Virus record (IMG/VR): IMGVR_UViG_3300030101_003037
Coordinates: 1-33,490 of that record
DNA length: 33,490 nt
Reading direction: 5' to 3' (one strand)
Source: a virus
The notes beneath the pieces are model-generated. The model saw only the letters and a program-made list of their open reading frames with translations. It had not been told where the DNA came from and ran no database searches. Numbering within the stretch: the stretch's first letter is position 1; each line of letters opens with the position of its first letter. The position numbers and the translations under genes are program-made. This document shows, piece after piece, positions 522 to 30,878 of the stretch.

Positions 522-550
522 AACAAACTCTAAATAATTTAATTATATAT
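522..550 (+). promoter_or_regulatory. Candidate phage promoter P1 (AACAAA-N12-TAATTATATAT)
   Basis: AACAAA at 522-527 is followed after 12 nt by TAATTATATAT at 540-550, matching the window-wide bipartite element in spacing and 10 of 11 second-box bases. It sits in the gap before the gene at 564. The projected transcript start near 553 would give a leader of about 11 nt. Confidence 0.6.
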
Positions 551-563
551 AAAAGCATAAAGT

Positions 564-959
564 ATGAAACCCTCAGTACAAAAGATAATAAATAAACTTC
601 CAAAAGAAAAGGTAGACTTAGCGACTCAAAAGGTAGACTTAACAAATCCTGACAGAGCAATACAAAATTTTAAAGATGAGTCAAGAAAACTTGTTCAGGC
701 AGAAAAGAGTCTAAGAGATGCACAAACTACTGCTATAAATGTACGTAGAAGATTAGATGATATTATTGATGAATTAGAAGCAAGTGTTAAAGGTATTGAT
801 AGCTTATTAAGAGGTCAAAACAAAGATTTTTTAGACCCTTCTATGATTAAAGAATTGCAAAGACAAGAAAGAGAAATAAAACTTTCATTTTCTCAAGCAA
901 GGGGTAGAAGAATGAGGGCAAAAGATATAGATGAGGCAGTCCGTAAAGCACTAAATTAA
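564..959 (+). CDS. Coiled-coil protein of the head module, function unknown
   Basis: 131 residues, charged and strongly helical in composition. Long Lys/Glu/Arg/Leu heptad-like stretches run from about residue 35 to 120 and there are no membrane segments or catalytic motifs. The first 30 residues contain a 21-base tandem duplication (607-620 repeated at 628-641) that encodes KVDL twice. It follows a candidate promoter and precedes the scaffold-like and capsid genes, so a role in head assembly or as an internal head protein is plausible. That is inference from position; I do not recognise the family. Confidence 0.8.
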   Translation: MKPSVQKIINKLPKEKVDLATQKVDLTNPDRAIQNFKDESRKLVQAEKSLRDAQTTAINVRRRLDDIIDELEASVKGIDSLLRGQNKDFLDPSMIKELQRQEREIKLSFSQARGRRMRAKDIDEAVRKALN

Positions 960-970
960 GAGAAAAATCT

Positions 971-998
971 AACAAAAAATTAATTATTTATTATATAT
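971..998 (+). promoter_or_regulatory. Candidate phage promoter P2 (AACAAA-N11-TTATTATATAT)
   Basis: AACAAA at 971-976 and an exact TTATTATATAT at 988-998. The spacer is 11 nt, one shorter than at the other sites. The second box lies two bases before the ATG at 1001, so the predicted mRNA would be leaderless or nearly so. It would drive the scaffold-like and major capsid genes. Confidence 0.65.
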
Positions 999-1000
999 GT

Positions 1001-1582
1001 ATGAAAGCACTTGATATTATAAACAAAGTAAAAGACCTTGTTGGAGTGGAACTCCAAGAGGAAGTAAAATTAGCTCAAGCTACTTTAGAAAATGGAACTG
1101 TGATAGAGGCAGAAAACTTTAGTGAAGGTAATGAGGTATTCATTGTAACAGAAGATGACAAGGTAAAAATGCCTGTCGGAGAATACCAGCTCGAAGATGG
1201 AGAAATTTTAAGTATAAAGGTAGAAGGAGTTATAGACTCAGTAGGTGCAAAAGAAGAAGAAGAAAAAGAAGAAGCCTCTGAGGAATTGACAGAAGAACCT
1301 AAAGAAGATGTTGAAGAACAAAACTTAGAGGAGGAAAAAGAAGAAATGAAATATGCAACTAAGACTGAGCTTGAAGAAGTAAAGAAATTAGTTGAGGAAG
1401 TCAAAGAGATGGTAAAAGGAATGGACACTAAAAAAGAAGAAAAAATGTCTGCTGTTCAAGAACCGCCTCAAAAGGTTACTCACTCACCTGAAAACGAAGT
1501 GAAAAAAGAAAGAACTCTCTTAGAAAGAAAAAGAGAAGAAACTACTTATGATAGAGTTCTAAGAAGAATTAATAATTTATAA
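1001..1582 (+). CDS. Putative capsid scaffold / head assembly protein
   Basis: 193 residues in two parts. Residues ~20-80 form a small beta-rich domain with the pattern LxxGTxIEAE, VPVGEYxLEDGxIL, VEGVIDSV, which recurs in proteins just upstream of capsid genes in Bacteroidota phages. Residues ~83-150 are extremely acidic and then coiled coil (ELEEVKKLVEEVKEM), and the C-terminus is basic (RVLRRINNL). An acidic helical middle and basic tail directly upstream of the major capsid gene are typical of scaffolding proteins, where the basic tail contacts the coat protein. The stop is 4 nt before the capsid start, so the two are probably co-transcribed from P2. Confidence 0.65.
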   Translation: MKALDIINKVKDLVGVELQEEVKLAQATLENGTVIEAENFSEGNEVFIVTEDDKVKMPVGEYQLEDGEILSIKVEGVIDSVGAKEEEEKEEASEELTEEPKEDVEEQNLEEEKEEMKYATKTELEEVKKLVEEVKEMVKGMDTKKEEKMSAVQEPPQKVTHSPENEVKKERTLLERKREETTYDRVLRRINNL

Positions 1583-1586
1583 TAAA

Positions 1587-2531
1587 ATGAAAAGAAAAGT
1601 AAATTTAAGTACAACAACTTCTTTAACCACTACTTATGCTGGTGAGTTTGCAGGACAATATATTAGTGCTGCTTTGCTTTCAGGTAAGACTTTGGGAGAA
1701 GAACTTATTACAATCAAGCCTAATATTGCTTTGAAAGAAGTAATAAAAAAGGTTTCAACTAATGACATTGTAAAAGATGCAAGTTGTGATTTTGACCCAA
1801 CTTCAACTATTACATTGACTGAAAGAATTTTACAGCCAGAGGAGTTTCAAGTAAACCTACAACTTTGTGTAAAAGATTTTATTGGAGATTGGGAAGCTGC
1901 TCAAATGGGAGTTAGTCCAATGAGTAGAAGTTTACCTCCTAAATTCTCAGATTTCTTAATTGCTCATGCTGCTGATAAAGTAGCTCAAAAAATAGAGCAG
2001 AATATTTGGAATGGTACAAATGCAAATGCAGGAGAATTTGATGGTTTCAAAACAACACTACTTGCAGATGCAGATGTAGTTGATGTTTCAGGAACAAGCT
2101 CTACAGCTTCAAACATTATTACAGAATTAGGTAAAATTGCTGATGCAATTCCTTCTGCTGTTTATGGTAATGAAGATGTTATTATATATCTTCCAAGCAA
2201 TATGTATAGAAACTATATCCGTAGTTTAGGCGGTTTCGGCAGCTCTGGCTTAGGTGCAGCAGGATATGAGAACAGAGGAAACAACCAAGACATTCAACCT
2301 GCCTTCTTTGATGGTATCAAGGTTGTTAATGTAAGTGGTTTAGCAAGTGATACAGCAGTAGCTGCTCAGAAAAGCAACCTTTTCTTTGGTTCTGGCTTAC
2401 TCTCTGATAATCAGGAAGTTAAGGTCATTGACATGAGAGACATTGATGGAAGCCAAAATGTAAGAGTAGTAATGCGATTTACAGCAGGTATTCAGCATGG
2501 AATTGGTTCTGACATTGTATTATATTCATAA
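1587..2531 (+). CDS. Major capsid protein (HK97-like fold)
   Basis: 314 residues, within the usual range for HK97-fold coat proteins. The N-terminus is polar and low-complexity (LSTTTSLTTTYAGEFAGQY). The body resembles coat proteins of flavobacterial phages: a helical segment with FLIAHAADKVAQKIEQNIWNG (spine-helix-like), a Gly/Asn-rich loop around residues 212-232 and a beta-rich C-terminus (VRVVMRFTAGIQHGIGSDIVLY). Placement after protease and scaffold-like genes and before decoration-like, tube and portal genes supports the call. No long N-terminal delta domain is present, which fits a separate scaffold protein. Assignment is by overall pattern and context, not by a catalytic motif. Confidence 0.85.
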   Translation: MKRKVNLSTTTSLTTTYAGEFAGQYISAALLSGKTLGEELITIKPNIALKEVIKKVSTNDIVKDASCDFDPTSTITLTERILQPEEFQVNLQLCVKDFIGDWEAAQMGVSPMSRSLPPKFSDFLIAHAADKVAQKIEQNIWNGTNANAGEFDGFKTTLLADADVVDVSGTSSTASNIITELGKIADAIPSAVYGNEDVIIYLPSNMYRNYIRSLGGFGSSGLGAAGYENRGNNQDIQPAFFDGIKVVNVSGLASDTAVAAQKSNLFFGSGLLSDNQEVKVIDMRDIDGSQNVRVVMRFTAGIQHGIGSDIVLYS

Positions 2532-2549
2532 TTTTTAAAATATAGATAG

Positions 2550-2960
2550 ATGAGCACAACAATAACACATAGTAATGATGTCGAAAGACAAGTCGAAAAG
2601 TACCAAGCTATTACCATTGGAGAAACATACACAATGGCAGATAGTGGTAAGACAATTAAAGTATCTGGTACAGGTGGAACAGTAACACTTCCAGCTCCAA
2701 CAGAAGGATTTAACATTAGATTTGTAACAACAGGAGGACTAACTTCTGCTAATACTGTAATCGCAGGAGGAACTGCTGATGTAATGGAAGGTTCTATCAT
2801 TGTTGCAGGAGCTGTAGTAGATGTAGATGCTGCTGACCAACTGAACTTTGTACATACTGCTGACAACTTAGGAGACTTTGTAGAGATTACCTCTGATGGG
2901 TCAAACTATTTTGTTTTTGGTAATGCACTTGAGTCAGGAGGTATTACAGCAACAGGATAA
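2550..2960 (+). CDS. Beta-rich virion protein, candidate capsid decoration
   Basis: 136 residues, small and beta-rich, with alternating Gly/Thr/Val segments (VSGTGGTVTLPAPTEGFNIRF, ending SDGSNYFVFGNALESGG). Proteins of this type, with the pattern LPAPTEGFxIRF and a C-terminal SDGxxYxVxG, sit just after the major capsid gene in related phages and are usually virion surface or decoration proteins. There is no signal peptide or membrane segment. It lies 18 nt after the capsid stop and is probably co-transcribed. The decoration role is inferred; a short head fibre is the alternative. Confidence 0.7.
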   Translation: MSTTITHSNDVERQVEKYQAITIGETYTMADSGKTIKVSGTGGTVTLPAPTEGFNIRFVTTGGLTSANTVIAGGTADVMEGSIIVAGAVVDVDAADQLNFVHTADNLGDFVEITSDGSNYFVFGNALESGGITATG

Positions 2961-3004
2961 TTATAACAGATAGCTGAAACGCTACCTAATAAATTCAATA
3001 AATT

Positions 3005-3553
3005 ATGGCTTGTACGTTAAGTGTAGGTAGAAAAGTACCATGTAAAGATGTAGTTGGTGGAATTAAAGGAGTATACTTTTTTGACTTTGGTTCTATTACA
3101 GCAGCTTTTGATAGTACAGATACAGATGTAGTTGAAGATTTAGGTGTAGTTACCTGTTTTAATTATGAAGTAAAAGGCAATAGTAGTTTTGAACAGGCTA
3201 TTACAAGTTCAAGGGAAAACGGAACAACTTTTTATGAGCAAACTCTTAATTTGACTCTTACAAAGCTAACTGTCCAAGACCACAAAGAACTTAGAATTTT
3301 GTCTGTAGCAAGACCTCATGTAGTAATAGAGGATTATAATGGAAATGCTTTCATTATGGGTCTTGAGCATGGAGCAGATGTTTCTGGAGGGACTATTGTA
3401 ACAGGAGCTGCTATGGGAGACCTAAGTGGTTATACTCTTACGCTAACAGCTCAAGAGCTAAAACCTGCTAACTTCTTAGAAGGAGCAACTGCTGCAAATC
3501 CGTTTGCTGGAATGACTAATACTGTAACAATTACAGAAGGTACTAACACCTAA
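3005..3553 (+). CDS. Major tail tube protein
   Basis: 182 residues. The layout resembles siphovirus tail tube proteins of Bacteroidota phages: an N-terminal metal/Cys-containing segment, a beta-rich core with SSRENGTTFYEQTLNLTL and LTKLTVQDHKEL, then VVIEDYNGNAFIMGLEHGADV and GDLSGYTLTLTAQE. The terms NGT-plus-strand, EDYNGxxFxxGxxxG and GYTLTLxxxE are the basis of the call. It lies between head genes and the portal rather than beside the tape measure gene 26 kb away. A strong terminator follows, consistent with abundant expression of the capsid-to-tube operon. Confidence 0.7.
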   Translation: MACTLSVGRKVPCKDVVGGIKGVYFFDFGSITAAFDSTDTDVVEDLGVVTCFNYEVKGNSSFEQAITSSRENGTTFYEQTLNLTLTKLTVQDHKELRILSVARPHVVIEDYNGNAFIMGLEHGADVSGGTIVTGAAMGDLSGYTLTLTAQELKPANFLEGATAANPFAGMTNTVTITEGTNT

Positions 3554-3575
3554 TAAACCTTAGAGTAATTAAGAG

Positions 3576-3602
3576 GGGAGGCATTTGTCTCCCTTTTTTT
3601 TT
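3576..3602 (+). terminator. Rho-independent terminator after the capsid/tube operon
   Basis: GGGAG at 3576-3580 pairs with CTCCC at 3589-3593 around an 8-nt loop, followed by nine T residues (3594-3602). It ends the run of genes from 1001 to 3553. The upstream in-frame ATG at 3585 lies inside this hairpin and is therefore not the start of the next gene. Confidence 0.85.
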
Positions 3603-3604
3603 AT

Positions 3605-3633
3605 AACAAAATCAAAACTCTTTTATTATATAT
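3605..3633 (+). promoter_or_regulatory. Candidate phage promoter P3 (AACAAA-N12-TTATTATATAT)
   Basis: AACAAA at 3605-3610 and an exact TTATTATATAT at 3623-3633. The ATG at 3636 is the 32nd base counted from the first A. It follows a terminator directly, which is the expected place for a new promoter. Confidence 0.7.
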
Positions 3634-3635
3634 AT

Positions 3636-3971
3636 ATGATTATTTTACAAGAGAGTGGTTCAGCTCAGAACATAGATTTTATTCCAAGAAGTTTTGTAAG
3701 TGGAGGTAGCTATGTAGTTACGATAGATGATGAGCAAACAGGTAAAAACATACACAATGCTACTACTACCAGCATTACAGAAGTTTTGTACTTTAATAGA
3801 TATAACGCTACCTTTACTACAAAACAAGATAACTTTTATGTCTTAACAATTAAGTCAAGTAGTGATGTAATATTTAAAGACAGAATATTCTGCACAAACC
3901 AGACTGATTACTCTATTAACAATGGAGAGTATCAACAGACAGAAAGTAATAATGATTTTATATTTGCATAA
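3636..3971 (+). CDS. Small virion-associated protein, conserved beside portal genes
   Basis: 111 residues starting MIILQESGSAQ. A longer frame begins at 3585, but that ATG lies inside the terminator hairpin and would translate promoter DNA, so 3636 is chosen. The protein is beta-rich, with an N-terminal ESGSAQxxxFIPRSF segment, a central run of strands and DRIFCTNQTDYSINNGEY near the C-terminus. I recognise this combination from small proteins in flavobacterial phages, where it accompanies structural genes; its exact role is unknown. It abuts the portal start with no gap, suggesting translational coupling. A head or neck structural role is inferred. Confidence 0.75.
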   Translation: MIILQESGSAQNIDFIPRSFVSGGSYVVTIDDEQTGKNIHNATTTSITEVLYFNRYNATFTTKQDNFYVLTIKSSSDVIFKDRIFCTNQTDYSINNGEYQQTESNNDFIFA

Positions 3972-5717
3972 ATGGAAAACGTACATTTAATAAACCTTTC
4001 AAGCTATAATAGACCTGAGGTAGTAGAGGACAAGAAAAAAGAGTATGTAGCCTATGGAGAAGATAACAACTACTATCAATACCTAATAGACAACTTTATA
4101 AACTCTACTACAAACAATGCTACAATAAATGGTATTGCTCAGCTTATTTATGGCAAAGGTATAGATGCCTTAGATAGCTCCACAAAGACAGAGGAGTATG
4201 CAGCTTTAAAATCTATATTTAACAATGAGTGCCTTAGAAAGATATGCTTAGATTTAAAACTTTTAGGAGAGGCATCATTCCAGGTTATCTACCAAAACAA
4301 CAAAGTAGTAAAAGCAGAACACTTTCCAAGACAAACCCTAAGACCTGAGAAGATGATAGATGGAGACATAAGAGCTTATTACTATTCTCCTGATTGGGCA
4401 AACATGAAAAAGTCAGACAAGCCTGAAAGAATTGCAGCTTTTGGTTTTGGAAATCAAACAGAACCAGAGATTAAAATAGTTAAGAGATATGTTTCAGGCT
4501 ATGATTATATATGTCCACCTGACTACGCTGGTTCTTTAGCCTATGCAGAGCTTGAGAGTCAAATATCAGACTATCTAATTAATGATGTTCAATGCGGCTT
4601 CTCTGGCACAAAGGTTATAAATTTTAATGCAGGTATACCTGAGAGACAGAAGCAGTTAGAAATCAAAAATGATGTAATGAGAAAGCTAACAGGGTCAATG
4701 GGAGAAAAGGTCATTGTAGCTTTTAACAATAATGCTGAGAGTAAAACTACTATTGATGATGTACCTTTAAATGATGCTCCTGCTCACTATGAGTATTTAT
4801 CTTCTGAGGCAGCAAGGAAAATAATGGTAGGTCATAGAGTAACTTCTCCACTTCTTTTAGGTATTAGAGATGACAACAATGGTCTTGGAAATAATGCAGA
4901 TGAGATTAGAACAGCTTCTTTGCTGTTTCAAAACACTACTATTAGACCATATCAGGACCTTATAGTGGACTGTATGGATGCTATTCTTGCAGTTAATGAT
5001 ATTAGTCTAAAATTATATTTTGTTACGTTACAGCCTCTTGAATTTATTGATACAGAAAATGCAGTAACTAAAGAAGCTAAGGAAGAAGAAACAGGAGTTA
5101 AACTTGCAGCAGTTCCTACAGATGTAGCAGATGCACTTATAGACTTAGGAGAAGATGAAGATTTAGAAAATTGGGAGCTGGTAGATGAAAGAGAGGTAGA
5201 TTATGACCAAGAGGAAACACTTGATAAAATGATAGGACTTGCCTCTACAGGTAGTGCAAGACCAAATGCTAAAAGTGAACAAGATAAAGATATAGGAGAC
5301 TTAAGATTCAAAGTTAGGTATCAATATGCACCTCTTAGAAGTGATAGTGAAAGCAGAGACTTCTGTGTAAAAATGGCAGCAGCAGGTAAAATCTATAGAA
5401 AAGAAGATATTATCTCAATGGAAAATAAAGTAGTCAATGCAGGATGGGGTCCAAATGGAGCTAATACTTATTCTATTTGGTTTTACAAAGGAGGAGGGTC
5501 ATGTAGACACTTTTGGATGAGAAAAACTTATATGGCTAAAGGAGTTAATCCAGATGCTAAAAATCCAAGAGCAGAGGTTTCAGTTAATGAAGCTAAAGCA
5601 GAAGGTTTAAAACCTGTAAAAAATGACTCTAAAGTAGCTAAAAGAACAAGAGACCAAGTGAACAGAGGTTTTTTACAACCAAAGAATTTTAAAACACCAA
5701 GAAGTAAAGGAGTATAG
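3972..5717 (+). CDS. Portal protein with C-terminal MuF-like extension
   Basis: 581 residues. The N-terminal ~350 residues resemble phage portals: YGEDNNYYQYLIDNFINS, TNNATINGIAQLIYGKG, LKLLGEASFQVIY, and a helical part with HRVTSPLLLGIRDDNNGLGNNADEIRTA, the region that forms the portal stem and crown. Residues ~440-525 form an added domain with ESRDFCVKM (Cys465), GWGPNGANTYSIW and GGGSCRHFWMRK (Cys511, His513), reminiscent of the Cys/His signature of MuF-type minor head proteins. A basic tail follows. It makes the DNA entry channel at one capsid vertex and binds terminase. The portal start follows the previous stop immediately, and the adaptor-like gene begins 2 nt after its own stop. Confidence 0.85.
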   Translation: MENVHLINLSSYNRPEVVEDKKKEYVAYGEDNNYYQYLIDNFINSTTNNATINGIAQLIYGKGIDALDSSTKTEEYAALKSIFNNECLRKICLDLKLLGEASFQVIYQNNKVVKAEHFPRQTLRPEKMIDGDIRAYYYSPDWANMKKSDKPERIAAFGFGNQTEPEIKIVKRYVSGYDYICPPDYAGSLAYAELESQISDYLINDVQCGFSGTKVINFNAGIPERQKQLEIKNDVMRKLTGSMGEKVIVAFNNNAESKTTIDDVPLNDAPAHYEYLSSEAARKIMVGHRVTSPLLLGIRDDNNGLGNNADEIRTASLLFQNTTIRPYQDLIVDCMDAILAVNDISLKLYFVTLQPLEFIDTENAVTKEAKEEETGVKLAAVPTDVADALIDLGEDEDLENWELVDEREVDYDQEETLDKMIGLASTGSARPNAKSEQDKDIGDLRFKVRYQYAPLRSDSESRDFCVKMAAAGKIYRKEDIISMENKVVNAGWGPNGANTYSIWFYKGGGSCRHFWMRKTYMAKGVNPDAKNPRAEVSVNEAKAEGLKPVKNDSKVAKRTRDQVNRGFLQPKNFKTPRSKGV

Positions 5718-5719
5718 AT

Positions 5720-6226
5720 ATGGCAACAGGATTAATGATTTCTCGTAAAGATATAGTCAAGTTCACTTCTTTGAATGGTAACATTGACACCGATAAGTTT
5801 ATACAATACATTCTTATAGCTCAAGAGACCCATATACAGAACTATCTTGGTTCAAAACTATATGATAAAATAAAAACAGACATTGAGGGTTCTTCTCTTA
5901 CAGGTAATTATTTGACATTAGTAAATACCTATATAAAACCAATGCTCTGTCATTGGGGACTTGTAGAGTTCCTTCCTTATGCAGCTTATACAATATCTAA
6001 CAAAGGTATATTTAAACACAACTCTGAAAATGCAATAAACGCTGATAAGAATGAAGTAGACTTCTTAATAGAAAAAGAAAGAAATATAGCTCAGTATTAT
6101 ACAGATAGATTTGTAGACTTTATGAGTTTTGAAGCTCCAAGCAAATATCCTGAGTATTTTACTAATAATAATGATGATGTTTTTCCTGACAAAAACAGTT
6201 ATGGATTTTCTGGATGGGTACTGTAA
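5720..6226 (+). CDS. Head-tail adaptor-like protein
   Basis: 168 residues, mostly helical: ISRKDIVKFTSLNGNIDTDKFIQYI, AQETHIQNYLGSKLYDKI, LVNTYIKPMLCHWGLVEFLPY, then a long helix IEKERNIAQYYTDRFVDFM and a Tyr/Pro/Asn-rich tail. The pattern of an N-terminal segment, HIQNYLGxxLYDKI and a Trp-containing central helix matches connector proteins that lie directly after portal genes in Bacteroidota phages (head completion or adaptor at the neck). No catalytic residues are seen. Start is 2 nt after the portal stop. The adaptor role is inferred from position and helical layout. Confidence 0.7.
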   Translation: MATGLMISRKDIVKFTSLNGNIDTDKFIQYILIAQETHIQNYLGSKLYDKIKTDIEGSSLTGNYLTLVNTYIKPMLCHWGLVEFLPYAAYTISNKGIFKHNSENAINADKNEVDFLIEKERNIAQYYTDRFVDFMSFEAPSKYPEYFTNNNDDVFPDKNSYGFSGWVL

Positions 6227-6318
6227 AGAGTTATAAAAATAAAGATAAGAATATACAAAAGCTTAAAGAGTTTTTGAAAAAAGGATATATAACAAAAAAA
6301 GAAAAAAAGTATTATTAA
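6214..6318 (+). CDS. Basic 34-residue peptide, SHOCT-like
   Basis: ATG at 6214 opens a 34-residue frame ending at TAA 6316-6318. It overlaps the end of the adaptor gene by 13 nt and fills the gap before the next gene. The peptide is very basic, and its second half, LKEFLKKGYITKKEKKYY, resembles the SHOCT motif (LxxLxxxGxITxxEFxxxK), a short helix pair found at protein termini. Its 3' third also carries candidate promoter P4. Overlapping placement supports a real gene, but the length makes chance possible. Function unknown. Confidence 0.5.
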   Translation: MGTVKSYKNKDKNIQKLKEFLKKGYITKKEKKYY

Positions 6319-6319
6319 T
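6291..6319 (+). promoter_or_regulatory. Candidate phage promoter P4 (AACAAA-N12-GTATTATTAAT)
   Basis: AACAAA at 6291-6296 and GTATTATTAAT at 6309-6319 (8 of 11 matches to the consensus second box). The ATG at 6322 is again the 32nd base from the first A. The site lies inside the small basic ORF, so it is a weaker case than P2, P3, P7 and P8. Confidence 0.5.
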
Positions 6320-6321
6320 AT

Positions 6322-6519
6322 ATGGCAAATACAATAAATTGGGGAAAGGTATATTGTGAGATGGTTACAAATAAAACTTGGGGAGACGAGGTTTATACCA
6401 CAAATGCAATAAATGACCTATCAGCTCCAAGTTGTTGGACCACATTTACAATAAGTGCAGACACAACTTTGTATAGTGCCGATACAACAAGTTTAACAGC
6501 AGATGTACAATTTATTTAA
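6322..6519 (+). CDS. Small virion-type protein, function unknown
   Basis: 65 residues beginning MANTINWGKVYCEMVTNK. The sequence contains Trp-rich N-terminal segments (NWGKVYCEM, TWGDEVYTT) and a Thr/Ser/Asp/Ala repeat near the end (SADTTLYSADTTSLTAD). Similar small proteins occur in flavobacterial phage structural regions, but I know no assigned function. It precedes a fibre-like gene by 2 nt and follows candidate promoter P4. A structural or fibre-attachment role is a guess from position. Confidence 0.7.
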   Translation: MANTINWGKVYCEMVTNKTWGDEVYTTNAINDLSAPSCWTTFTISADTTLYSADTTSLTADVQFI

Positions 6520-6521
6520 TT

Positions 6522-7076
6522 ATGGCAAAGACAAACGTAAATACAGGGAGTAGTGCAAATGATGGTACAGGAGACCCTTTAAGAACAGCTTTTACAAGCA
6601 TAAATTCTAACACAGATGAGATATACTCCTTGTTTGGTAATGGAAGCACACTTGCAATTAGTGGAGATGCTTCTGTTTCAGGAGGAGCTTTAACTATTGC
6701 TAATGATGCAGTAGAACACGCTATGCTTGAACCAAGATACACTGCAAAAGCAACAAGCACAGGTACAGGTAGTCAAAATTTAGATGCTTCTACTGCTACT
6801 ACTTTCCTTCTTACAGGTAATGTAGCAACAGCTACTCTTACAATACAAAACATGAAGCTTGGTCAGGTTATTGACATTGTACTTTCTGGAACTCTAAGTA
6901 GTGCTGCAATAACACTTGCAACTAATTTTACAAGTGCTACAATAAATAAGGTAGGAAGTACAGACTTAGATACCTCTGCTACTAATGTTATTCAAGTTGT
7001 ATGTATTGATGATACAGATTCAGCAGCTATTATAAACTATTCTATAAACACCTTTGCAGCAGATACAACACCATAA
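6522..7076 (+). CDS. Fibre-like structural protein
   Basis: 184 residues. The N-terminus holds the motif NTGSSANDGTGDPLRTAFTSINSN, a signature seen at the start of many phage tail fibre and collar proteins (NDGTGDxLRxAFxxxNxN). The rest is a low-complexity beta-type sequence rich in Thr, Ser, Ala and Asn, including a TATLTIQNMKLGQVIDIVLSG segment resembling a fibre shaft or knob. It lacks enzymatic motifs. It lies 2 nt from both neighbours, within a block of adaptor, fibre-assembly-like and LamG fibre genes. Confidence 0.7.
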   Translation: MAKTNVNTGSSANDGTGDPLRTAFTSINSNTDEIYSLFGNGSTLAISGDASVSGGALTIANDAVEHAMLEPRYTAKATSTGTGSQNLDASTATTFLLTGNVATATLTIQNMKLGQVIDIVLSGTLSSAAITLATNFTSATINKVGSTDLDTSATNVIQVVCIDDTDSAAIINYSINTFAADTTP

Positions 7077-7078
7077 TT

Positions 7079-7627
7079 ATGAAAGCAAGAGAAACAAAAA
7101 ACGGAATTACTACTTATCCTATATTACCTTCTACTTGGAATGGTAAGAAAGGACATTATATAAACTTTAGAAATGCAGATAAAAAGACATTAGAGTCAGA
7201 AGGGTTTTATGATGTAGTACAGCCTTCTTACAATCCACAAACTCAAAACATAGGTGCTATAGAGTGGGATAAGAAAAAGAAAATCTTTACTCGCAAAGTA
7301 ACAGACATAGATTTCTCTGCAACTTATGAAGTAGTAGATGAAGAAAATAAAAAAACAGGAGAAGTAAAAAATGTTTATGATGTTGACACTAAAAAAGCAG
7401 ACTTAATAAAAGACTTAAAATCAAAAGCTAATAAATTATTATCACCAACAGATTGGCAAGTAGTAAGAAAAGCAGAAAGAGATATTGCTATTGATGATGA
7501 TGTCAAAGAAGAAAGAGCAAAAATATTAGCTGAATATGATAAAAAGAAAAAAGAGGTAAATGCTAAAAAGAAATATGGAACTCTTTTAAGTTATGATACT
7601 ACTTTTTTCCCTGTAAAACTTGACTAA
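7079..7627 (+). CDS. Possible tail fibre assembly protein
   Basis: 182 residues, charged and Lys-rich. The N-terminus (TYPILPSTWNGKKGHYINF) is followed by beta-type segments, then a helical region with LLSPTDWQVVRKAERDIAID and EERAKILAEYDKKKKEV. The LLxxTDWxVxRxxExxxxIxxxxxxxRxxI pattern is that of the helical segment of phage tail-fibre assembly chaperones. Its stop overlaps the start of the large LamG fibre gene (TAATG), as chaperone-fibre pairs often do. The role is inferred from this motif and placement. No signal peptide or membrane segment. Confidence 0.6.
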   Translation: MKARETKNGITTYPILPSTWNGKKGHYINFRNADKKTLESEGFYDVVQPSYNPQTQNIGAIEWDKKKKIFTRKVTDIDFSATYEVVDEENKKTGEVKNVYDVDTKKADLIKDLKSKANKLLSPTDWQVVRKAERDIAIDDDVKEERAKILAEYDKKKKEVNAKKKYGTLLSYDTTFFPVKLD

Positions 7628-21409: not shown

Positions 21410-21414
21410 TAAAG

Positions 21415-21442: not shown

Positions 21443-21444
21443 TA

Positions 21445-21473: not shown

Positions 21474-21475
21474 GT

Positions 21476-22670: not shown

Positions 22671-23215
22671 TGGAATATAAAGAAGTCAAAAGGATATTAA
22701 AGCAGTTTGCTGAGAGTGTTAAAAAACAAGCTATAGGAAACCTAAGAAGAAACAAGAACAATAGGTTCATGACAGGTTCTTCAAGTGGTAACTTAGAGGG
22801 TAGTTTAGATTATAAATTAAACGAATATCCAAACAGCTTAAACTTAGAGTTCTCAATGCTTGAATATGGTTCATATCAAGATGAGGGTGTAAGAGGAAGC
22901 AAAAGCTCATACCGTCAAAGTAGAAATAGTAGGTTCTCTTATTCAGGAGGTAAAAAAACAATAGCTTATAAATCATTAGATAAGTGGATGGTCAAAAAGA
23001 ATTTAGATGGGGTAAGAGATGCTCAGGGAAGGTTTATATCAAGAAAGAGTCTTAGATATTTAATAGCAAGAAGCATATATCAAAAAGGACTTAGAGCAAG
23101 TAGTTTCTTTACAAGACCTCTTATGGATAATTATCTCAAACTACCTGAGGAGTTTATAGATGCCTTTCAGTTAGATTTTGATGAGTTTGTTGACCAAATT
23201 AATTTAACACAGTAG
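22670..23215 (+). CDS. Tail completion / neck protein (HK97 gp10-like)
   Basis: 181 residues. Basic helical start (KQFAESVKKQAIGNLRRNKNNRF), a turn SLDYKLNEYPNSLNLEFSMLEYGSYQDEGVRG with the short GxYQDEGVRG loop, and SLRYLIARSIYQKGLRASSFFTRPL near the end. This pattern is that of small head-tail connector proteins of the HK97 gp10 type. Start is at the previous gene's stop; 2 nt separate it from the next gene. The connector role is inferred from these segments and the position between terminator-like and tail-tip genes. Confidence 0.65.
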   Translation: MEYKEVKRILKQFAESVKKQAIGNLRRNKNNRFMTGSSSGNLEGSLDYKLNEYPNSLNLEFSMLEYGSYQDEGVRGSKSSYRQSRNSRFSYSGGKKTIAYKSLDKWMVKKNLDGVRDAQGRFISRKSLRYLIARSIYQKGLRASSFFTRPLMDNYLKLPEEFIDAFQLDFDEFVDQINLTQ

Positions 23216-23217
23216 AA

Positions 23218-24753
23218 ATGAGTAAGTTAAACGCAAGGAGTCCTTTTTATATAAACTACAGTACACCTACAGCACCAACTGTAGCTTATGATTGTACAGT
23301 AGCAAATCTTACAGGCTTTGCTGTAGACCAAGAAGGTGTAATCACAGAACCAAATGTAGAGAGAGGAGTATTTAAAAGTTTTACAAGTTCTGCTGGAGAT
23401 TTTGCAAATGATAAATTTGCTACAGTAAGTACAGCTACTTCAAGAACTATTACAGTTACTATACAAATACCTACAGGATACTCAAACAGCTCAGATGGTA
23501 CATTTACTTGTACAGCTACAGCAACACAAATAGCTAAAGTAACCTCAGGCTCTACTCCCTCTTGTACAGGTGGTCCAACGACAAACGGAAGCATATCGAC
23601 TCAGACAATAGCATCAGGAGGAAACACAGTAACTATAGACCTTACTGCTAAGTTTAATAGTGCAACTAAATACTCAGTTTTTAATTATCATCCTGCTTTA
23701 TTTAATGCAGTTGTAAGTGGTACAAATCTTATTTTAACCTCAGGTAATTCAGGAGGTTCTGGTAATGCTTATGTAAGAGCAAATGATAACGGAGTCAATA
23801 CTTGTTCTGTACAGCAAAGAGTACCTGTTACTATAACAGTATCTTCTGCTTTAGATTGTACAACAGCAGACCTAACAGGAGGCACTGCAACAGCAGCAGG
23901 AGCAGTTACAGAGCCAACACTAATTGGAGGAACTATTGCTTCTTTCTCTTTAGACTCAAGTGGTTCTCCTACAATAACAAGTCTATCAGCTAACTCAGGT
24001 TCAGCATCTCAAAGTGTTACAGTATATTTTAATATAACAGTAGGCTCTGAGTATACAAACTCAGGAGCAACTATTGTCTGTCCGAAAGCAATATTACAAG
24101 CAGGTACAGCCTTACCTACATTTACTTGCGATATAGCAGGAATATCAGGTCAAGGTATATCAAGAGGAGGAGATGTAATTGTAGGAACAGCAGCTAAAGG
24201 TAATGTTACAGGATTTACGATTGTTGGAAGTACACTAAAAGCATTTGGAGAGGTAACCTCAGCAGTTACAAGAAATGTATCTTTTGAAGTTACTCCTCCT
24301 GCTGGAGAGTATTCAAGTGATTCTGCAATTATCTGTCCTAATTCAAGTGGACTTTCTTTATTACAAGAACCAGCGACTACAACTTGTGGTACTATTATTT
24401 ATTATGGAAGTGACAGAGGTGAAGTTGATGAAACAGATTTCTGTCAAAGTGGACAGGCTTATGCAAGAGAGTTCAAAGTTTTGTCTACAGCAACAAATAT
24501 AAGACAAGCTAAAGGTCATAGTGTTTGCTATGCAGACCAAAGCACAAATGCAGCTCAAGGGGTATTTCAAGGAGGTGATTTATATTATGTAGTAGATACT
24601 TTTTTAAATCTTACAGACATAACACAAAGAGCTTTATCATCTACTCAATTTAATCCTTTTTTATTATGGAGAGTGAACAATGGAATTATTCAAGAAGTTT
24701 GGGAGTGGAATTGTAGTTCAGGAGGAGATGGAAGTGGAAATCAAATACAATAA
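23218..24753 (+). CDS. Tail protein with repeated Ig-like modules
   Basis: 511 residues. Three ~75-residue modules of one type lie at about 25-104, 213-294 and 303-376, each starting DCT or TCD, and sharing an EP strand, a SRTxxVxIxxPxGY-type core and a C(P/T)-type end. Between the first two lies an extra Ig-like part (110-212, NGSISTQTIASGGNTVTIDL). Residues ~385-511 form a different ending with Cys and Trp. The same module appears in the fibre at 32464. Position in the tail operon suggests a tail surface protein that could bind host glycans. No enzyme motif is present. Confidence 0.65.
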   Translation: MSKLNARSPFYINYSTPTAPTVAYDCTVANLTGFAVDQEGVITEPNVERGVFKSFTSSAGDFANDKFATVSTATSRTITVTIQIPTGYSNSSDGTFTCTATATQIAKVTSGSTPSCTGGPTTNGSISTQTIASGGNTVTIDLTAKFNSATKYSVFNYHPALFNAVVSGTNLILTSGNSGGSGNAYVRANDNGVNTCSVQQRVPVTITVSSALDCTTADLTGGTATAAGAVTEPTLIGGTIASFSLDSSGSPTITSLSANSGSASQSVTVYFNITVGSEYTNSGATIVCPKAILQAGTALPTFTCDIAGISGQGISRGGDVIVGTAAKGNVTGFTIVGSTLKAFGEVTSAVTRNVSFEVTPPAGEYSSDSAIICPNSSGLSLLQEPATTTCGTIIYYGSDRGEVDETDFCQSGQAYAREFKVLSTATNIRQAKGHSVCYADQSTNAAQGVFQGGDLYYVVDTFLNLTDITQRALSSTQFNPFLLWRVNNGIIQEVWEWNCSSGGDGSGNQIQ

Positions 24754-24755
24754 CA

Positions 24756-25748
24756 ATGGCAGCAACTCTTAAATCAGTTACATTACAAATATATATTTAT
24801 ACAGGAACTTCTGGTAGTTACTCTGATAGTGATTTAAAATTTACTCTACAAAAAGAACTTATTACAGGACATTCAAAAATAATATTTGAGATAGCAGAAA
24901 TGGTAAGAGACTACATTAGTGTAAGTTTCAATAATGACTACGTTTCAAATACAGTTTGGGTAACTACTATAGCAAACCTATTTGATGAGACAGGAACTAT
25001 ATTTAGCTTTGGAAATCCTGTAACTAACACCTACTTAGCTTTTGATGCTTATGGATATTTTGAAGATGAGATAAACCCACAAGGTAATATCTATGACCTT
25101 ATTACTTCTTCTAATATTATACTTCCAAAAGATACTGCTGGTAAGTTACCTGTATATGCAGCGAGTACAGGAAGTGTAGTTATAGATAGTAGTTCTACTT
25201 CTATTACAGACAATGGAAACACTAATCAAAAGATTCAATATATAACTATACCTGCTAACAGTTCTACTATACTCGTTAAAGACAGTGGAGGTACAACCAA
25301 AAAAACTATTACAGTATCTACAGAATGTCCTGATAAGTTCACACCTTACAAGGTTACATTTGTGAACAAGCATGGAGCTTTCCAAGATTTATACTTTTTT
25401 AAGAAATCAGTAGAGAGTTTTAATGTTACAGGAGATGAAAGTTTTAAAAGAAATACTGTAAGTACAAGCACTGTTACTTATAACACCTATGAAGGACAAA
25501 AAGAAAGATTCAATGTAAATGCTCAAAGCAGCATACAACTGAACACAGGCTATATTCCAGAAGATTTAAAAGAAGCAGTTGAGGAGCTGTTTATATCTGA
25601 GAATGTATTTATAAGATATGAAAGTAAGACCCTTCCAATTATTCCTAAGACAAAATCATTTACTCATAAAACAAGTCTCAATGACAAACTAATAAATTAC
25701 ACAGTAGACTTTGACTTTGCCTTCAACAAGATAAACAATGTCAGATAA
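24756..25748 (+). CDS. Tail protein, baseplate/tip region
   Basis: 330 residues, beta-rich. LKFTLQKELITGHSKIIFEIAEMVRDYISVSFN and YLAFDAYGYFEDEINPQ near the first third, then a central Ser/Thr-rich part and TFVNKHGAFQDLYFFKKSVESFNVTGDESFKRN. This pattern is familiar from tail tip genes of flavobacterial phages, located between the Ig-module protein and the large tail protein. It has no catalytic site. Two nt after the Ig-module protein; its stop overlaps the next start. Confidence 0.65.
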   Translation: MAATLKSVTLQIYIYTGTSGSYSDSDLKFTLQKELITGHSKIIFEIAEMVRDYISVSFNNDYVSNTVWVTTIANLFDETGTIFSFGNPVTNTYLAFDAYGYFEDEINPQGNIYDLITSSNIILPKDTAGKLPVYAASTGSVVIDSSSTSITDNGNTNQKIQYITIPANSSTILVKDSGGTTKKTITVSTECPDKFTPYKVTFVNKHGAFQDLYFFKKSVESFNVTGDESFKRNTVSTSTVTYNTYEGQKERFNVNAQSSIQLNTGYIPEDLKEAVEELFISENVFIRYESKTLPIIPKTKSFTHKTSLNDKLINYTVDFDFAFNKINNVR

Positions 25749-28700
25749 TGAAAGTATCCTTACAGCTTTTTGTAGATGGTCAGCAAGTAGAATTGTTTGA
25801 AGATGAAAGTATTACACTCACTCAAAGTATACAAGATGTTAGAGATATTGCAAAGATATTTACTGAGTTTACAAGACAGTTTAGTGTACCTGCCTCCAAA
25901 AACAACAATAGAGTTTTCCAGCATTTCTACAACCAAGATATTGTTGATGGTTTAGATGCAAGACAAAAAATAGATGCAGTCCTTTATTTAAATTATCAAT
26001 TATTTAAGATTGGTAAGATAAAGCTTAAAGGAGCAACTCTTAAAAACAATAAACCTCACACTTATAGAATTGTATTTTTTGGTAATACAGTCAACCTTAA
26101 GGACCTTGTAGCTAAAACAAATATAGGTTCATTAAACCTACTTAGAGATTTTACCTTTCAGTACAACAGCACAAATATAAAAAGTGCTTTAAACACTCCT
26201 GTAGACATTACAGTAGATGGAGAGGTTTTCAAAGATGCAATAGTATTTCCTGTAATAACACACACACAAAGATTAATTTATAACTCTGCAAGTACAGCAG
26301 CAAATACAACCTCACTTGCTAATGTATACTACTCAGGTAATACTCATGGTCTGGAACTTGGTCAATTAAAACCAGCTTTAAATGTATACGCTATAATCAG
26401 AGCAATAGAAATACAATACTTTAAACCAAAAGGCTACAGTTTTTCTACAGACTTTTTCTATGACCTAAACCCAAATCTTTCAGGGTTATATATGTGGCTT
26501 CATAATAAAGCAGGAGAGCTATTCCAAGACCAAAACAAAATTGAGTCTTTTACAAATTACACTCATATAAGAGGACTTACAACAGTTGTGAATGTAGACC
26601 CTAATAGCTTTGAGTCCCCTTCAAGAAATGCAGGTAGATTAGAAAAAAAGAGAGACAGAAGAATGTCGTTTGAAGTAACTCCATCAGGAAGTCAAACCTA
26701 TACAGTTTATTTATACAAAGATGGAGAGATATTTAAGACTTATGAGAATTTATCAGGAACACAAACAGACATAGAGTCAGCGTTAATCTTACCAAAAGGG
26801 ATTTATTCTTTTGCAATTTCTTCAAGTGGTTCAGGAACTTTTACTTTAAAAGCAAGAGTAGCTTTCCAAAGAAAAATAGTAGGTCTTGGTACTACAACAG
26901 CATCAAGGAACTTTAGTTGTACAGCTACAGTAGGTACAGATGTTACTTTAGACTTTGAAAGATACATTCCTGAGATGCCTATAATGGACTTCCTCACAGC
27001 GATTTTCAAGATGTTCAATCTTACAGCATTTATACAAAACGATAAAACAATTAAAATAACAACTCTTGATGACTTCTATGCCTCGAGTGCAAACTCTTAT
27101 GACATTACATTAGACCTTGACAAAAAGTCAAGTATGGTAGATACAGTAATGCCTTACAGACAGATTAGTTTTGATTATCAAGGCAGAGAAAGTTTCTTTT
27201 CTATAAACCATGAGAGACAATTCTATAAAAATTGGGGGTCTGTCGACTATGATGCAACTCAACATCCAAGTCCTCCTGACAATGTTTTAGATGGTACTGT
27301 ATATAAAATAGAAATACCTTTTGAACATCATAAGTTTGAGAAGTTGTTAAATGTAAACGGAGGAGCTGAAACAAATATTCAATGGGGATGGAGTGTTGAT
27401 GACAGTCAGGCTCCATATTTAGGGAAACCTTTACTGTTTTATCCTGTACTCTCCTCAGGTACTGCTCTAAGTGTTGTAGATTTAGAGGGAAGCGTATCTT
27501 CTATGTCAAGTTATTTTATACCAAGCAACTCTATAAACCTTACAAAAGAAAAGACTGTAGATGGTAAGACTGTAGACTCCTCTGATAACATACACTTTAA
27601 CGGAGAGGTCAATGAGTTTGCTTTAGTACCATTTGAAAAAACACTATTTGACAAATACTACAAGACATATATTGAGGAAGTTTTTGATTTAAACAGAAGG
27701 CTTACAAAAGTTACAGCTCATTTAAGCTATGGTACACTTTTAAACTTATCTCTTGCAGATATAATTATAATATTCAACAGAAAATATAAAATAAACAAAA
27801 TCACTACAAACTTTGAGACTCTTGTAAGTAATTTAGAACTTATAAACACTCACAAAGAGACTACAGGTATTATACCATCAAGGTTCTTAAAGAATGAAGC
27901 AGAGATACAACCATCAGGAAGGGTAGCCTGTGAGCTTACAGCAGATACAACAAACATCAGAGCAGACATAGGTTCAATTACAGCAGACCAACAATGTAAC
28001 ATAGATGGTTTAAACATTATAAGTGCTGGAGAAGCTATACCTCAAACAGAGCAACCTAAGAATACCCCTGTACAACAAATACAAGGAGAGTCTCTTGCAG
28101 TTACTTCTCCTACATTAATATATCAAACACCTACATCTGCTACATCTTCTGTAGTTTATATGAAATTTAAAGTAAACACCTTAGGTGCTATAGGTAATTT
28201 ATCACAAATTGCAGAGTATGGTTTCTTTTATTCTACTAATGCAAGGAATGATGTAGAACAATTTACAGGAGCTACTGCAATAGAAAGCCTTAAAGGAGCT
28301 TCTAATGTTAATTATATTCCATTCACACCATCACAGGCAGATAAATTTACAGCAGGTAAAGAAGTACAGCACTCTGTTACAGGTCTTTCAAATAGTTATG
28401 TTTATTACAGGTTCTATGGTAGAACAAATACAGACAGCTCTTATGATACAGGAGACTTTTTAAGTCCTACATTTGTAGAACACACAGCTCAGTCATTTAG
28501 TTTGACTGCTACATCTGATACAAGAGAGTATACTAAAGACTCTACCTCAGACAATGTAGATATTAGAATAACTCATGCAGATGGAACAGTAGTAGACTTA
28601 CAAAACATTACAGGACATGCAACAAGCTTCTACTCTAAAACAGTACCTGTTGTAGTGTCAGGGAATACAGGCACTTTTACACAAATAAGAACCAATATTT

Positions 28701-29089
28701 ATTTTAGTGGTTTCATAGGAGAGAGTAATATAACTTATGCAGGATTTTCTTCATTGAGAGTTTCAGTAGGCAGAAGAACAGGTTATAGTGCTACTTCAAG
28801 AGATACTGCTGAGAGTGATGCAAAACTAAACAAAAGCACTGCACCTGAATTGTTCTTTTCAAACAGGACAAGTAGTAGTCAGTTTATATTTCCATTTAGA
28901 GCAGAAGGATTTAGTGTGTATACTACAACAAATGTTTTAAATACTGCTGCTGCTTCTGGTATTACTTTAGCTTCTGATGGATTCTATGCTTATTTTGGAT
29001 TTGCCTCAGATGGTAGTTACTCAAGAAGTACAGGTGTATCAGTAAGAGTAGTCAATGGTATAATTACAGAGAAACAATTATTTTATTAA
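25748..29089 (+). CDS. Large central tail protein (tip/hub-like)
   Basis: 1113 residues. The N-terminal ~150 (MKVSLQLFVDGQQVELFEDESITLTQSIQDVRDIAKIFTEFTRQFSVPASKNNNR) match a hub-type domain seen in flavobacterial phages. The middle (300-650) is mixed beta with an NFSCTATVGTDVTLDFERYIPEMPIMDFLTAIFKMFNL block. Around residue 724 comes a GRVACELTADTT ... GSITADQQCNIDGLNI linker, and residues ~780-930 look like a fibronectin-type fold (SVTGLSNSYVYYRFYGRTN). It is probably the distal tail hub with host-contacting modules. Expressed in line with the tail operon; it starts inside the previous stop. Confidence 0.65.
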   Translation: MKVSLQLFVDGQQVELFEDESITLTQSIQDVRDIAKIFTEFTRQFSVPASKNNNRVFQHFYNQDIVDGLDARQKIDAVLYLNYQLFKIGKIKLKGATLKNNKPHTYRIVFFGNTVNLKDLVAKTNIGSLNLLRDFTFQYNSTNIKSALNTPVDITVDGEVFKDAIVFPVITHTQRLIYNSASTAANTTSLANVYYSGNTHGLELGQLKPALNVYAIIRAIEIQYFKPKGYSFSTDFFYDLNPNLSGLYMWLHNKAGELFQDQNKIESFTNYTHIRGLTTVVNVDPNSFESPSRNAGRLEKKRDRRMSFEVTPSGSQTYTVYLYKDGEIFKTYENLSGTQTDIESALILPKGIYSFAISSSGSGTFTLKARVAFQRKIVGLGTTTASRNFSCTATVGTDVTLDFERYIPEMPIMDFLTAIFKMFNLTAFIQNDKTIKITTLDDFYASSANSYDITLDLDKKSSMVDTVMPYRQISFDYQGRESFFSINHERQFYKNWGSVDYDATQHPSPPDNVLDGTVYKIEIPFEHHKFEKLLNVNGGAETNIQWGWSVDDSQAPYLGKPLLFYPVLSSGTALSVVDLEGSVSSMSSYFIPSNSINLTKEKTVDGKTVDSSDNIHFNGEVNEFALVPFEKTLFDKYYKTYIEEVFDLNRRLTKVTAHLSYGTLLNLSLADIIIIFNRKYKINKITTNFETLVSNLELINTHKETTGIIPSRFLKNEAEIQPSGRVACELTADTTNIRADIGSITADQQCNIDGLNIISAGEAIPQTEQPKNTPVQQIQGESLAVTSPTLIYQTPTSATSSVVYMKFKVNTLGAIGNLSQIAEYGFFYSTNARNDVEQFTGATAIESLKGASNVNYIPFTPSQADKFTAGKEVQHSVTGLSNSYVYYRFYGRTNTDSSYDTGDFLSPTFVEHTAQSFSLTATSDTREYTKDSTSDNVDIRITHADGTVVDLQNITGHATSFYSKTVPVVVSGNTGTFTQIRTNIYFSGFIGESNITYAGFSSLRVSVGRRTGYSATSRDTAESDAKLNKSTAPELFFSNRTSSSQFIFPFRAEGFSVYTTTNVLNTAAASGITLASDGFYAYFGFASDGSYSRSTGVSVRVVNGIITEKQLFY

Positions 29090-29092
29090 CAA

Positions 29093-29242
29093 ATGATAGA
29101 AAATATTATTAATTTATTAGAGATAGCTAAAGAAGCTAAAAAAGGAGGAGAGTATACAGATATTGCTTTAGGTAAGTATAAATTTCCAAATAGTCTTGTA
29201 GAGGCTTACCAACAATTTAAGATAGAGTTATGGCAAAAGTAA
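29093..29242 (+). CDS. Small protein just ahead of the tape measure gene
   Basis: 49 residues, ATG at 29093, stop at 29240-29242, overlapping the tape measure start by 13 nt. Helical (IENIINLLEIAKEAKKGGEY), then TDIALGKYKFPNSLVEAYQQFKIELWQK. It fits the gap and is coupled to the tape measure, but I do not recognise it. A weak match to the P element lies at its start (29088-29116). Confidence 0.6.
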   Translation: MIENIINLLEIAKEAKKGGEYTDIALGKYKFPNSLVEAYQQFKIELWQK

Positions 29243-30849
29243 TAAATGCTGAGATAGACATTAAAACAGGAGCAGCGACAAAAGCTGTTGATGACTTAGC
29301 ACAGGGTATTGAAAACTTTAACGCTGAGGTTGCAACTACAAACACTAAAGCAGCAAAAGGGTTTAAATCACTTAATACTGCTGTAGAGAAAACAAGCAGA
29401 GGTTTTAAAGGTCTTGGTAATGCTTTGAAAGCTGCTGGTATAGGTTTAGCTATTGCTGCTTTTGCAAAGCTATCTGAGGTATTTAGAGAAAATCAAAAAG
29501 TAACTAATTTTTTCAATACAACTTTTGAAGCACTTAGTTTAGCTTTCAATGATTTCTTTAATTTCTTAAATAGAAATGTAGGTACAGTTATAGACTACTT
29601 TAGAGGTTTGTTTGAGGACCCTGTTACTTCACTTAAAAACTTTGGTACTGCAATAGTAAATAATGTTGTAGAAAGAGTTAGGTCTGCTTTGGATGCTTTA
29701 GGATTTTTAGGAGATGCAGTTGTAAAAGTATTTCAAGGAGATTTTGCTGGAGCAGCAGAGTCAGCTAAAAATGCAGGTAAAGAACTTGTAGATGTAGTTA
29801 CAGGAGTAGATGATTCATTTGAAAAAATAGCTGAGGCAGCACCTGCTGTAGTAAAAGGAATAACTGATTATGCTAAAAGTACAGTACAAGCTGCAAAAGA
29901 TACAGTAGAGCTTAACAGAGCAGCAGAAATTGGTATAGCACAAAACAGAATCATCTTAGAACAAAAAGACAGAGAAGCAGAAAAGCTAAGACAGATAAGA
30001 GATGATGAAACAAAAACTATTGCAGAAAGAATAAAAGCAAATGAAGATTTAGCAAAAGTATTAGAAGAGCAAGAAAAATTAATGTTAGCAAATGCTCAAG
30101 CAGTTATAGATGCAGCACAGGCTCAGTTTGATAAAAATGCAAATGATGAAAACCAAATAGCTCTCTTAGATGCTAAAGCAGAGAAAGAAGGTATACTTGC
30201 ACAAATAGAAGGATTTAGAAGTGAGCAATTAATAAACAGAATATCTCTTGAAAGAGAAGCAGCAGATTTAAGAGAAGAATCTTTAGAAAAAGAAATAGAA
30301 CTTGAAAAAGAAGCAAGAAAAGCAAGAGAAGAAAAACTTTTAGGTATAGCAGCCTCTATAGGTATGCAAGAGAAAATGGAAAAGGTTTTATTTATAGCTC
30401 AACAAAAAAGAATTATACAAGAACAAATAGCACAAGCTAAAGCAACTCTTGCAAGAATAACGATGAAGTCCTCTGAAAGTGGAGTAGCAACTGCTCAAGG
30501 TGCTGCTGAAACAGCTAAAGTAGGATTTCCACAAAATGTACCTTTGCTTATTGCTTTTGCAGCTCAAGCAGCAGGAATATTGTCAGCAGTTAAATCAGCA
30601 GCAAGTGCTGCAAAAAGTGTTGTAAGTTCATCAACTCCCTCAGGTGGTGGAGGTGGTGGTGATATAGGAGGAGGTGGTGGTGGAACTCCTCCCCCTGCAT
30701 TTAACATAGTTGGTGCTGCTCCAGAGAACCAATTAGCTGAAAGTATAGGAGCACAACAAGACAGACCAATAAAGGCTTTTGTAACAAGTACAGATGTATC
30801 TTCTCAACAAGCACTTGACAGGTCTATAGAAGATGAGTCAGCAATTTAA
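29230..30849 (+). CDS. Tail tape measure protein
   Basis: 539 residues. Features are those of tape measures: an alpha-helical body, a hydrophobic segment near 65-85 (GLGNALKAAGIGLAIAAFAKL), Ala/Lys-rich coiled coil from about 235 to 400, a second Ala-rich stretch (AAQAAGILSAVKSAASAAKSV), and a Gly-rich hinge GGGGGGDIGGGGGG near 475-490. At about 1.5 angstrom per residue the tail would be near 80 nm, short for a siphovirus. It is preceded by hub, terminator and chaperone genes, as usual, although the tail tube gene sits elsewhere. Confidence 0.8.
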   Translation: MAKVINAEIDIKTGAATKAVDDLAQGIENFNAEVATTNTKAAKGFKSLNTAVEKTSRGFKGLGNALKAAGIGLAIAAFAKLSEVFRENQKVTNFFNTTFEALSLAFNDFFNFLNRNVGTVIDYFRGLFEDPVTSLKNFGTAIVNNVVERVRSALDALGFLGDAVVKVFQGDFAGAAESAKNAGKELVDVVTGVDDSFEKIAEAAPAVVKGITDYAKSTVQAAKDTVELNRAAEIGIAQNRIILEQKDREAEKLRQIRDDETKTIAERIKANEDLAKVLEEQEKLMLANAQAVIDAAQAQFDKNANDENQIALLDAKAEKEGILAQIEGFRSEQLINRISLEREAADLREESLEKEIELEKEARKAREEKLLGIAASIGMQEKMEKVLFIAQQKRIIQEQIAQAKATLARITMKSSESGVATAQGAAETAKVGFPQNVPLLIAFAAQAAGILSAVKSAASAAKSVVSSSTPSGGGGGGDIGGGGGGTPPPAFNIVGAAPENQLAESIGAQQDRPIKAFVTSTDVSSQQALDRSIEDESAI

Positions 30850-30878
30850 AACAAAAGCATAAAATTTATATTATATAT
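30850..30878 (+). promoter_or_regulatory. Candidate phage promoter P8 (AACAAA-N12-ATATTATATAT)
   Basis: AACAAA at 30850-30855 and ATATTATATAT at 30868-30878 (10 of 11). The ATG at 30881 is the 32nd base from the first A, as at P3, P4 and P7. It follows the tape measure stop and heads the capsid protease gene. The first base of the element is inside the tape measure stop region (30847-30849), so the two features abut. Confidence 0.7.

Follow-up and report, generated by a model that had tools for sequence, protein, structure and literature searches.

Genome organization of the window

The window is the whole IMG/VR virus record IMGVR_UViG_3300030101_003037, a linear sequence of 33,490 bases that is possibly an incomplete genome. 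All of its main genes lie on the + strand. Structural genes occupy two blocks (564-10050 and 19346-32467), and replication, recombination, methyltransferase, and sigma factor genes lie between them. The large terminase shares ~50% identity with those of Flavobacterium psychrophilum phages, and the portal shares 37% identity with that of the marine Nonlabens (Persicivirga) phages P12024S and P12024L, genus Inhavirus. The window appears to belong to a marine virus of flavobacteria-type bacteria. Relatives of its terminase, portal, and sigma factor are encoded on many contigs. Searches against named phages, by Megablast with the window and by tblastn with the sigma factor, returned no match.

A bipartite element upstream of late genes

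A preliminary description of this DNA listed eight sites of a two-box element, with AACAAA as the first box and an 11-base sequence as the second, and proposed a phage-specific promoter family. The coordinates and box-to-box offsets of all eight sites proved correct on re-examination. The element is real at seven of them, one of which (6291) is weak, while the eighth (15637) is probably a chance match. The accepted sites share one strand and a box spacing of 12 nt (11 nt at 971), and they precede late (structural and packaging) genes, often with a terminator immediately upstream, which strongly supports the proposed family.

The first candidate late promoter spans 522-550, with AACAAA at 522-527, TAATTATATAT at 540-550, and the ATG of gene 564 lying 42 nt after box 1. 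The second, at 971-998, has an 11-nt spacer (AACAAA 971-976, TTATTATATAT 988-998), and its ATG at 1001 follows box 1 by 30 nt. The same second box recurs in the candidate at 3605-3633 (AACAAA 3605-3610, TTATTATATAT 3623-3633; ATG 3636, 31 nt) and in the one preceding the small terminase gene at 19294-19322 (AACAAA 19294-19299, TTATTATATAT 19312-19322), where the ATG at 19346 lies 52 nt away. The site at 21445-21473 begins with TACAAA (21445-21450) followed by TTATTATATAA (21463-21473), and the last, at 30850-30878, combines AACAAA (30850-30855) with ATATTATATAT (30868-30878); their ATGs, at 21476 and 30881, both lie 31 nt after box 1. A weak or degenerate late promoter is proposed at 6291-6319 (AACAAA 6291-6296, TATTATTAATA 6309-6319; ATG 6322, 31 nt). 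At five of the seven accepted sites in the window, the distance from box 1 to the ATG is 30-31 nt. The preliminary description predicted a transcript start ~31 nt downstream of the first box, which at these sites would fall on the start codon.

When at most one mismatch per box and a spacer of 11-12 nt are allowed, the window contains six forward sites (522, 971, 3605, 19294, 21445, and 30850) and no reverse site, against an expectation of 0.04 from 200 dinucleotide shuffles. The site count against shuffled sequence that had been suggested as a check is therefore strongly in favor of the element. The loosest standard of the preliminary description, 8 of 11 bases in the second box, is too permissive, as it returns 17 forward and 4 reverse matches with 6.5 expected; these matches were kept out of the evidence. 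Two of the listed sites are indistinguishable from chance by sequence alone: 6291 has three mismatches in box 2, and 15637 combines AACACG as box 1 with a weak box 2. The former is accepted as a weak site because its place is conserved in relatives, with 15 of 30 orthologues of gene 6322 carrying the element, mostly 31 nt before the ATG. The latter was dropped as a promoter, as only 2 of 49 orthologues of gene 15686 carry the element, and these at other distances.

Conservation of the element in relatives

The motif search was extended to 22 records totaling 626 kb, comprising the window and 21 relatives, after removal of three near-identical records. On the forward strand, AACAAA-N12-TTATT(A/G)TATA occurs in its exact form 31 times, against no occurrence on the reverse strand and 0.1 in shuffles, and every other spacing from 4 to 24 yields only 0-1 matches each. 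Chance pairing of A/T-rich words in an A/T-rich genome could account for 15637 and some matches in coding regions, which are of the kind expected at the loosest threshold. For the six core sites this explanation is already refuted by the excess of strict pairs, the spacing peak, the strand bias, and the conservation in relatives, and for the element as a whole its probability is negligible. In a separate scan of viral contigs with the exact pattern, the matches listed include both members of the family and hits in A/T-rich contigs that are probably due to chance. The F. psychrophilum phage FPSV-S2 served as a control because it has a related large terminase and no annotated sigma factor; it has one match versus six in the window.

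Across 195 distinct sites, the consensus is tAACAAAa-N11/12-TTATTGTATAwwTATG, and TTATTGTATA is the second box of the family as a whole. The two boxes hardly vary, and the spacer bases carry little information, a signature that would suit two DNA contacts held at a fixed distance. Position 24, within the second box, is A at every site of the window clade (22 A, 0 G) and G at most sites of the other relatives (21 A, 134 G). Of the distinct contexts in which the second box stands at a start codon, 115 also contain box 1. Another 22 lack it; in about half of these, a TACA-type or 11-nt-spaced box 1 is obvious.

Dozens of divergent relatives retain the element, in keeping with a promoter family, and the position of the element is specific to particular genes; because the relatives share ancestry, the orthologue and record counts given here are not independent. 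Upstream of gene 3636, it is present in 82 of 84 orthologues, with the ATG exactly 31 nt from box 1 in 81 of those 82. Gene 30881 has it in 37 of 45 orthologues, all 37 at 31 nt. For gene 21476, 45 of 76 orthologues pass the search threshold, 40 of them at exactly 31 nt, and several further orthologues carry TACA-type variants of box 1. Most of the 53 positive orthologues of gene 1001 (58 in total) have the ATG at 30-33 or 44 nt. Longer distances characterize the small terminase gene 19346 (62 of 80 orthologues, mostly 51-53 nt) and gene 564 (six of seven, at 41-42 nt). In the same orthologue test, most other late genes have the element in none of their orthologues. The pattern is what would result if several late operons each had their own promoter, with the box-to-box distance fixed and the ATG distance specific to each gene.

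The proximity to start codons raises the alternative that the element is a translation-initiation signal in mRNA, such as an A/T-rich region bound by the ribosome or S1, serving highly expressed late genes. At five of the seven sites, 2-3 nt separate the end of the element from an ATG, and in flavobacteria, which have no Shine-Dalgarno sequences, A-rich upstream signals are used instead (PMC6847099). However, the distance to the ATG varies between genes over 30-53 nt (30-32, 41-44, and 51-53 nt), with no fixed distance to the start codon, while the boxes stay 12 nt apart, which argues for recognition of DNA rather than mRNA. The flavobacterial preference for A at -3, -6, -12, and -13 (PMC6847099) is also poorly matched, as TTATTGTATAww places T at -12 and -13. 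Most of the other late genes lack the element entirely, and terminators directly 5' of box 1 would leave little mRNA to carry it. This explanation is therefore very improbable, and recognition of the element as promoter DNA is the preferred reading.

Terminators and the early-region start

The preliminary description noted that two of the sites follow terminators, which is correct. An intrinsic terminator at 3571-3598 (+ strand) ends just 5' of the 3605 promoter candidate, and a terminator-like hairpin followed by a T-run lies at about 21415-21434 (+ strand), directly before the site at 21445. In nearly all relatives, a hairpin and T-run lie just 5' of box 1 before the genes corresponding to 3636 and 21476, ending ~5-20 nt from box 1, and the hairpin sequences differ. 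Terminator-like hairpins also immediately precede the ATG at 12949 and the start codon of many orthologues of gene 3005, in both cases without the element and with no room for one. A hairpin before a gene is thus not by itself proof of a new promoter.

The start of the early region has another layout. Bacteroidota promoters have the form TTTG / TAnnTTTG, in which TAnnTTTG is the -7 element of the host primary sigma factor (PMC6847099). On the + strand at 12305-12359, a terminator (12305-12324) is followed by the host-type -7 element TATATTTG (12348-12355) and the 4 nt AATT, which separate it from the ATG at 12360. This layout is also present in three close relatives (G001, G002, and G003) and in the divergent G008, and the remaining relatives have similar, less exact sequences. 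Among the late sites, a host-type TAnnTTTG occurs only at 19318, where a perfect TATATTTG overlaps the 19294 promoter candidate. The other late sites lack this host pattern, in keeping with the earlier claim that the element differs from it. Early genes thus appear to use a start of host type, and late genes the new element. Reading by an Escherichia coli-type sigma-70 was also considered and rejected, as promoter-like sites of that type are no commoner in the window than in shuffles.

A phage-encoded ECF-type sigma factor

The candidate reader of the element is encoded on the + strand at 14048-14587, a 179-amino-acid product with predicted regions 2 and 4. It matches the NCBIfam ECF sigma models TIGR02937 and TIGR02985 with E ~1e-7, below the curated cut-offs, and TIGR02937 matches 31 of 32 members of the sigma family. 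A Pfam search of the window protein gave no sigma domain above threshold. Its structure model (mean pLDDT 76.7) shows two helical domains joined by a poorly resolved linker, and the best PDB matches are the ECF sigma factors SigL, SigE, and SigH, with probability near 1, an E-value of 0.0035 at best, and a low whole-chain TM, probably because the linker is flexible. With only regions 2 and 4 detected, together with the ECF model matches and the modeled fold, the protein is best classed as a putative ECF (group 4) sigma factor.

All 21 records that span this early region contain the sigma gene, as do 20 of the 24 relatives searched. In the other four relatives, the neighboring helicase and NinG genes are missing too, which indicates that these records are truncated and uninformative on sigma absence. 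A divergent sigma lineage (L062/L064) was inspected for a motif of its own, and no clear one was found.

Divergence of the second box in a cultured relative

The Inhavirus phages P12024S and P12024L (NC_018271 and NC_018272) resemble the window in genome layout, in the placement of the sigma gene, and in having an AACAAA box 31-32 nt before the ATG of late genes; they differ in the second box, CGTTAATATA, and in a spacer of 13-14 nt. Promoters are not annotated in either record. In P12024S, a gene annotated as sigma-70 region 2 (gp33) occupies the place corresponding to the window sigma, and late genes are preceded by AACAAA-N13/14-CGTTAATATA at six sites, with none on the other strand and 0.02 in simulated sequence. 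The coding strands of the window and of P12024S each lack the element type of the other. Region 4 of the P12024S sigma has diverged, yet AACAAA is kept, so the matching of box to sigma region is not clean. A different sigma alongside a different second box, and likewise the clade-specific base at position 24, would fit a pair drifting together, although common ancestry alone could give the same result.

These comparisons also bear on whether the promoters are read by the host. The sigma could then be the primary one, sigma-ABfr, or one of the host's ECF factors; alternatively, a second phage protein that binds DNA, for example the DnaA-C-like product of the gene at 16629, could assist the host holoenzyme. 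The overlap at 19294 is compatible with host reading, and the DnaA-C-like gene is also core (21 of 25 records). However, the remaining late sites lack TAnnTTTG, and a proper host-type element is found instead at the early start. The phage sigma accompanies every record spanning its region, and P12024S differs from the window in both second box and sigma. Host reading is therefore unlikely, less so than a translation signal. Probably, tAACAAAa-N11/12-TTATT(A/G)TATAww serves a group of marine flavobacterial-type siphophages as their late promoter and is read by the phage sigma.

Proposed mechanism of late transcription

From the sequence, spacing, conservation, and placement of the element, the terminators, and the sigma gene, we infer recognition by the phage sigma, the transcript start sites, and late timing. 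In the proposed scheme, the phage sigma would be made from the early region under the host-type promoter. Host RNA polymerase carrying this ECF-type sigma (14048-14587) would then read both boxes, box 1 serving as a -35-like element and box 2 as a -10-like element. For most late operons, transcription would begin no more than a few bases from the start codon, which lies 31 nt after box 1, and the mRNAs would be leaderless or nearly so, whereas the small terminase gene and gene 564 would have leaders of ~10-20 nt.

The predicted start depends on how box 2 is read. If TATT(A/G)T is taken as the -10 hexamer, transcription would begin on the A of the ATG. In coliphage phiEco32, starts lie 6-8 nt after tAATGTAtA (PMC8948821), and by that rule the start here would coincide with the G of the ATG or lie a little past it. 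The sequence appears to be best read as giving leaderless or nearly leaderless late mRNAs. Phage transcripts have been described as often leaderless (PMC5312081), so leaderlessness alone would not be unprecedented.

Relation to known systems and implications

Phage-encoded sigma factors that redirect host polymerase provide the closest parallels. Late promoters of Salmonella phage 7-11, GTAAtg-(16)-aCTA, are read by the phage sigma SaPh711_gp47 (PMC8948821). Both these promoters and the element are bipartite, phage-specific, and placed before late genes, with a phage sigma acting on host core polymerase, as is proposed for the element. The element differs in its consensus and spacing (AACAAA-12-TTATTRTATA), its host phylum, and its fusion to the start codon, and it is known from sequence. 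The middle and late promoters of phiEco32 consist of tAATGTAtA read by gp36 (PMC8948821, PMC4331800). This single element resembles TATTGTATA and likewise depends on a phage sigma, but it has no -35-like counterpart. As in phiEco32 and 7-11, the window encodes a sigma-70-family protein, and its late genes are preceded, on the coding strand, by a repeated motif that is not of host type. The principle is already known from these two phages, whereas the consensus, the geometry, and the phage group appear to be undescribed; the literature searched, the coverage of which is incomplete, yielded no description of phage-sigma promoters in phages of Bacteroidota.

The element shares with the promoters of the Bacteroidota host primary sigma an A/T-rich composition and a position upstream of genes, and the phage early region seems to use that host type. 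Its box spacing and sequence differ, and, apart from the overlap at 19318, the core late sites lack TAnnTTTG. Bacterial ECF sigma factors recognize promoters of the GGAAC / CGTC type. Similarities to these include an upstream box containing AAC, a downstream box in P12024S containing CGTT, and the ECF-like phage sigma, but box 1 lies ~3-5 nt closer to the proposed start, and the second box of the window lacks CGTC.

A broader picture, which we favor by a modest degree, is that a large group of uncultured marine phages uses its own ECF-type sigma and a bipartite promoter running into the start codon, giving leaderless late mRNAs in a bacterial group whose own mRNAs mostly have leaders. Between phage genera, the sigma would have diverged together with the -10-like box, with the 31-nt geometry from box 1 to the ATG held fixed. 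The cultured phage P12024S allows a direct test of the leaderless prediction. The promoter family can be read from sequence alone and marks late operons on many uncultured marine phage contigs. It offers a natural series of sigma/promoter pairs that have apparently drifted apart, and it suggests orthogonal promoter parts for flavobacteria.

Additional sequence features

The region at 12305-12360 contains a terminator followed by TATATTTG, a -7 element of the host type (TAnnTTTG, that of the Bacteroidota primary sigma factor). An ATG located 4 nt downstream of TATATTTG starts a short ORF of ~40 amino acids. The site is likely the early promoter, with a transcript that is apparently leaderless, as for most of the late promoters, the AACAAA-N11/12-TTATT(A/G)TATA elements found before late genes.

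A strong terminator-like hairpin at 12923-12951, kept in related viral contigs, has a T-run that continues directly into the helicase start codon (ATG at 12949), and a promoter cannot fit between the two. Orthologues of the gene at 3005 are also preceded by hairpins resembling this one. The hairpins at both positions may serve as partial terminators or function in mRNA processing or stability. Additionally, a palindrome, TTGATTAATCAA, lies at 19323-19334 between the late promoter and the ATG of the small terminase gene; it is mostly kept in relatives, as TTGAATAATCAA, and could represent an operator or a 5' hairpin.

The two ends of the record (1-339 and 33152-33490) match each other with 90% identity over 339 bases. 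The likely source of this match is a protein domain that occurs in repeated copies, not an exact terminal repeat.

A small protein encoded at 16629-17063 carries the DNA-binding domain found at the C-terminus of DnaA, and 21 of the 25 records compared have a relative of this protein. It may be an origin-binding protein of the phage.
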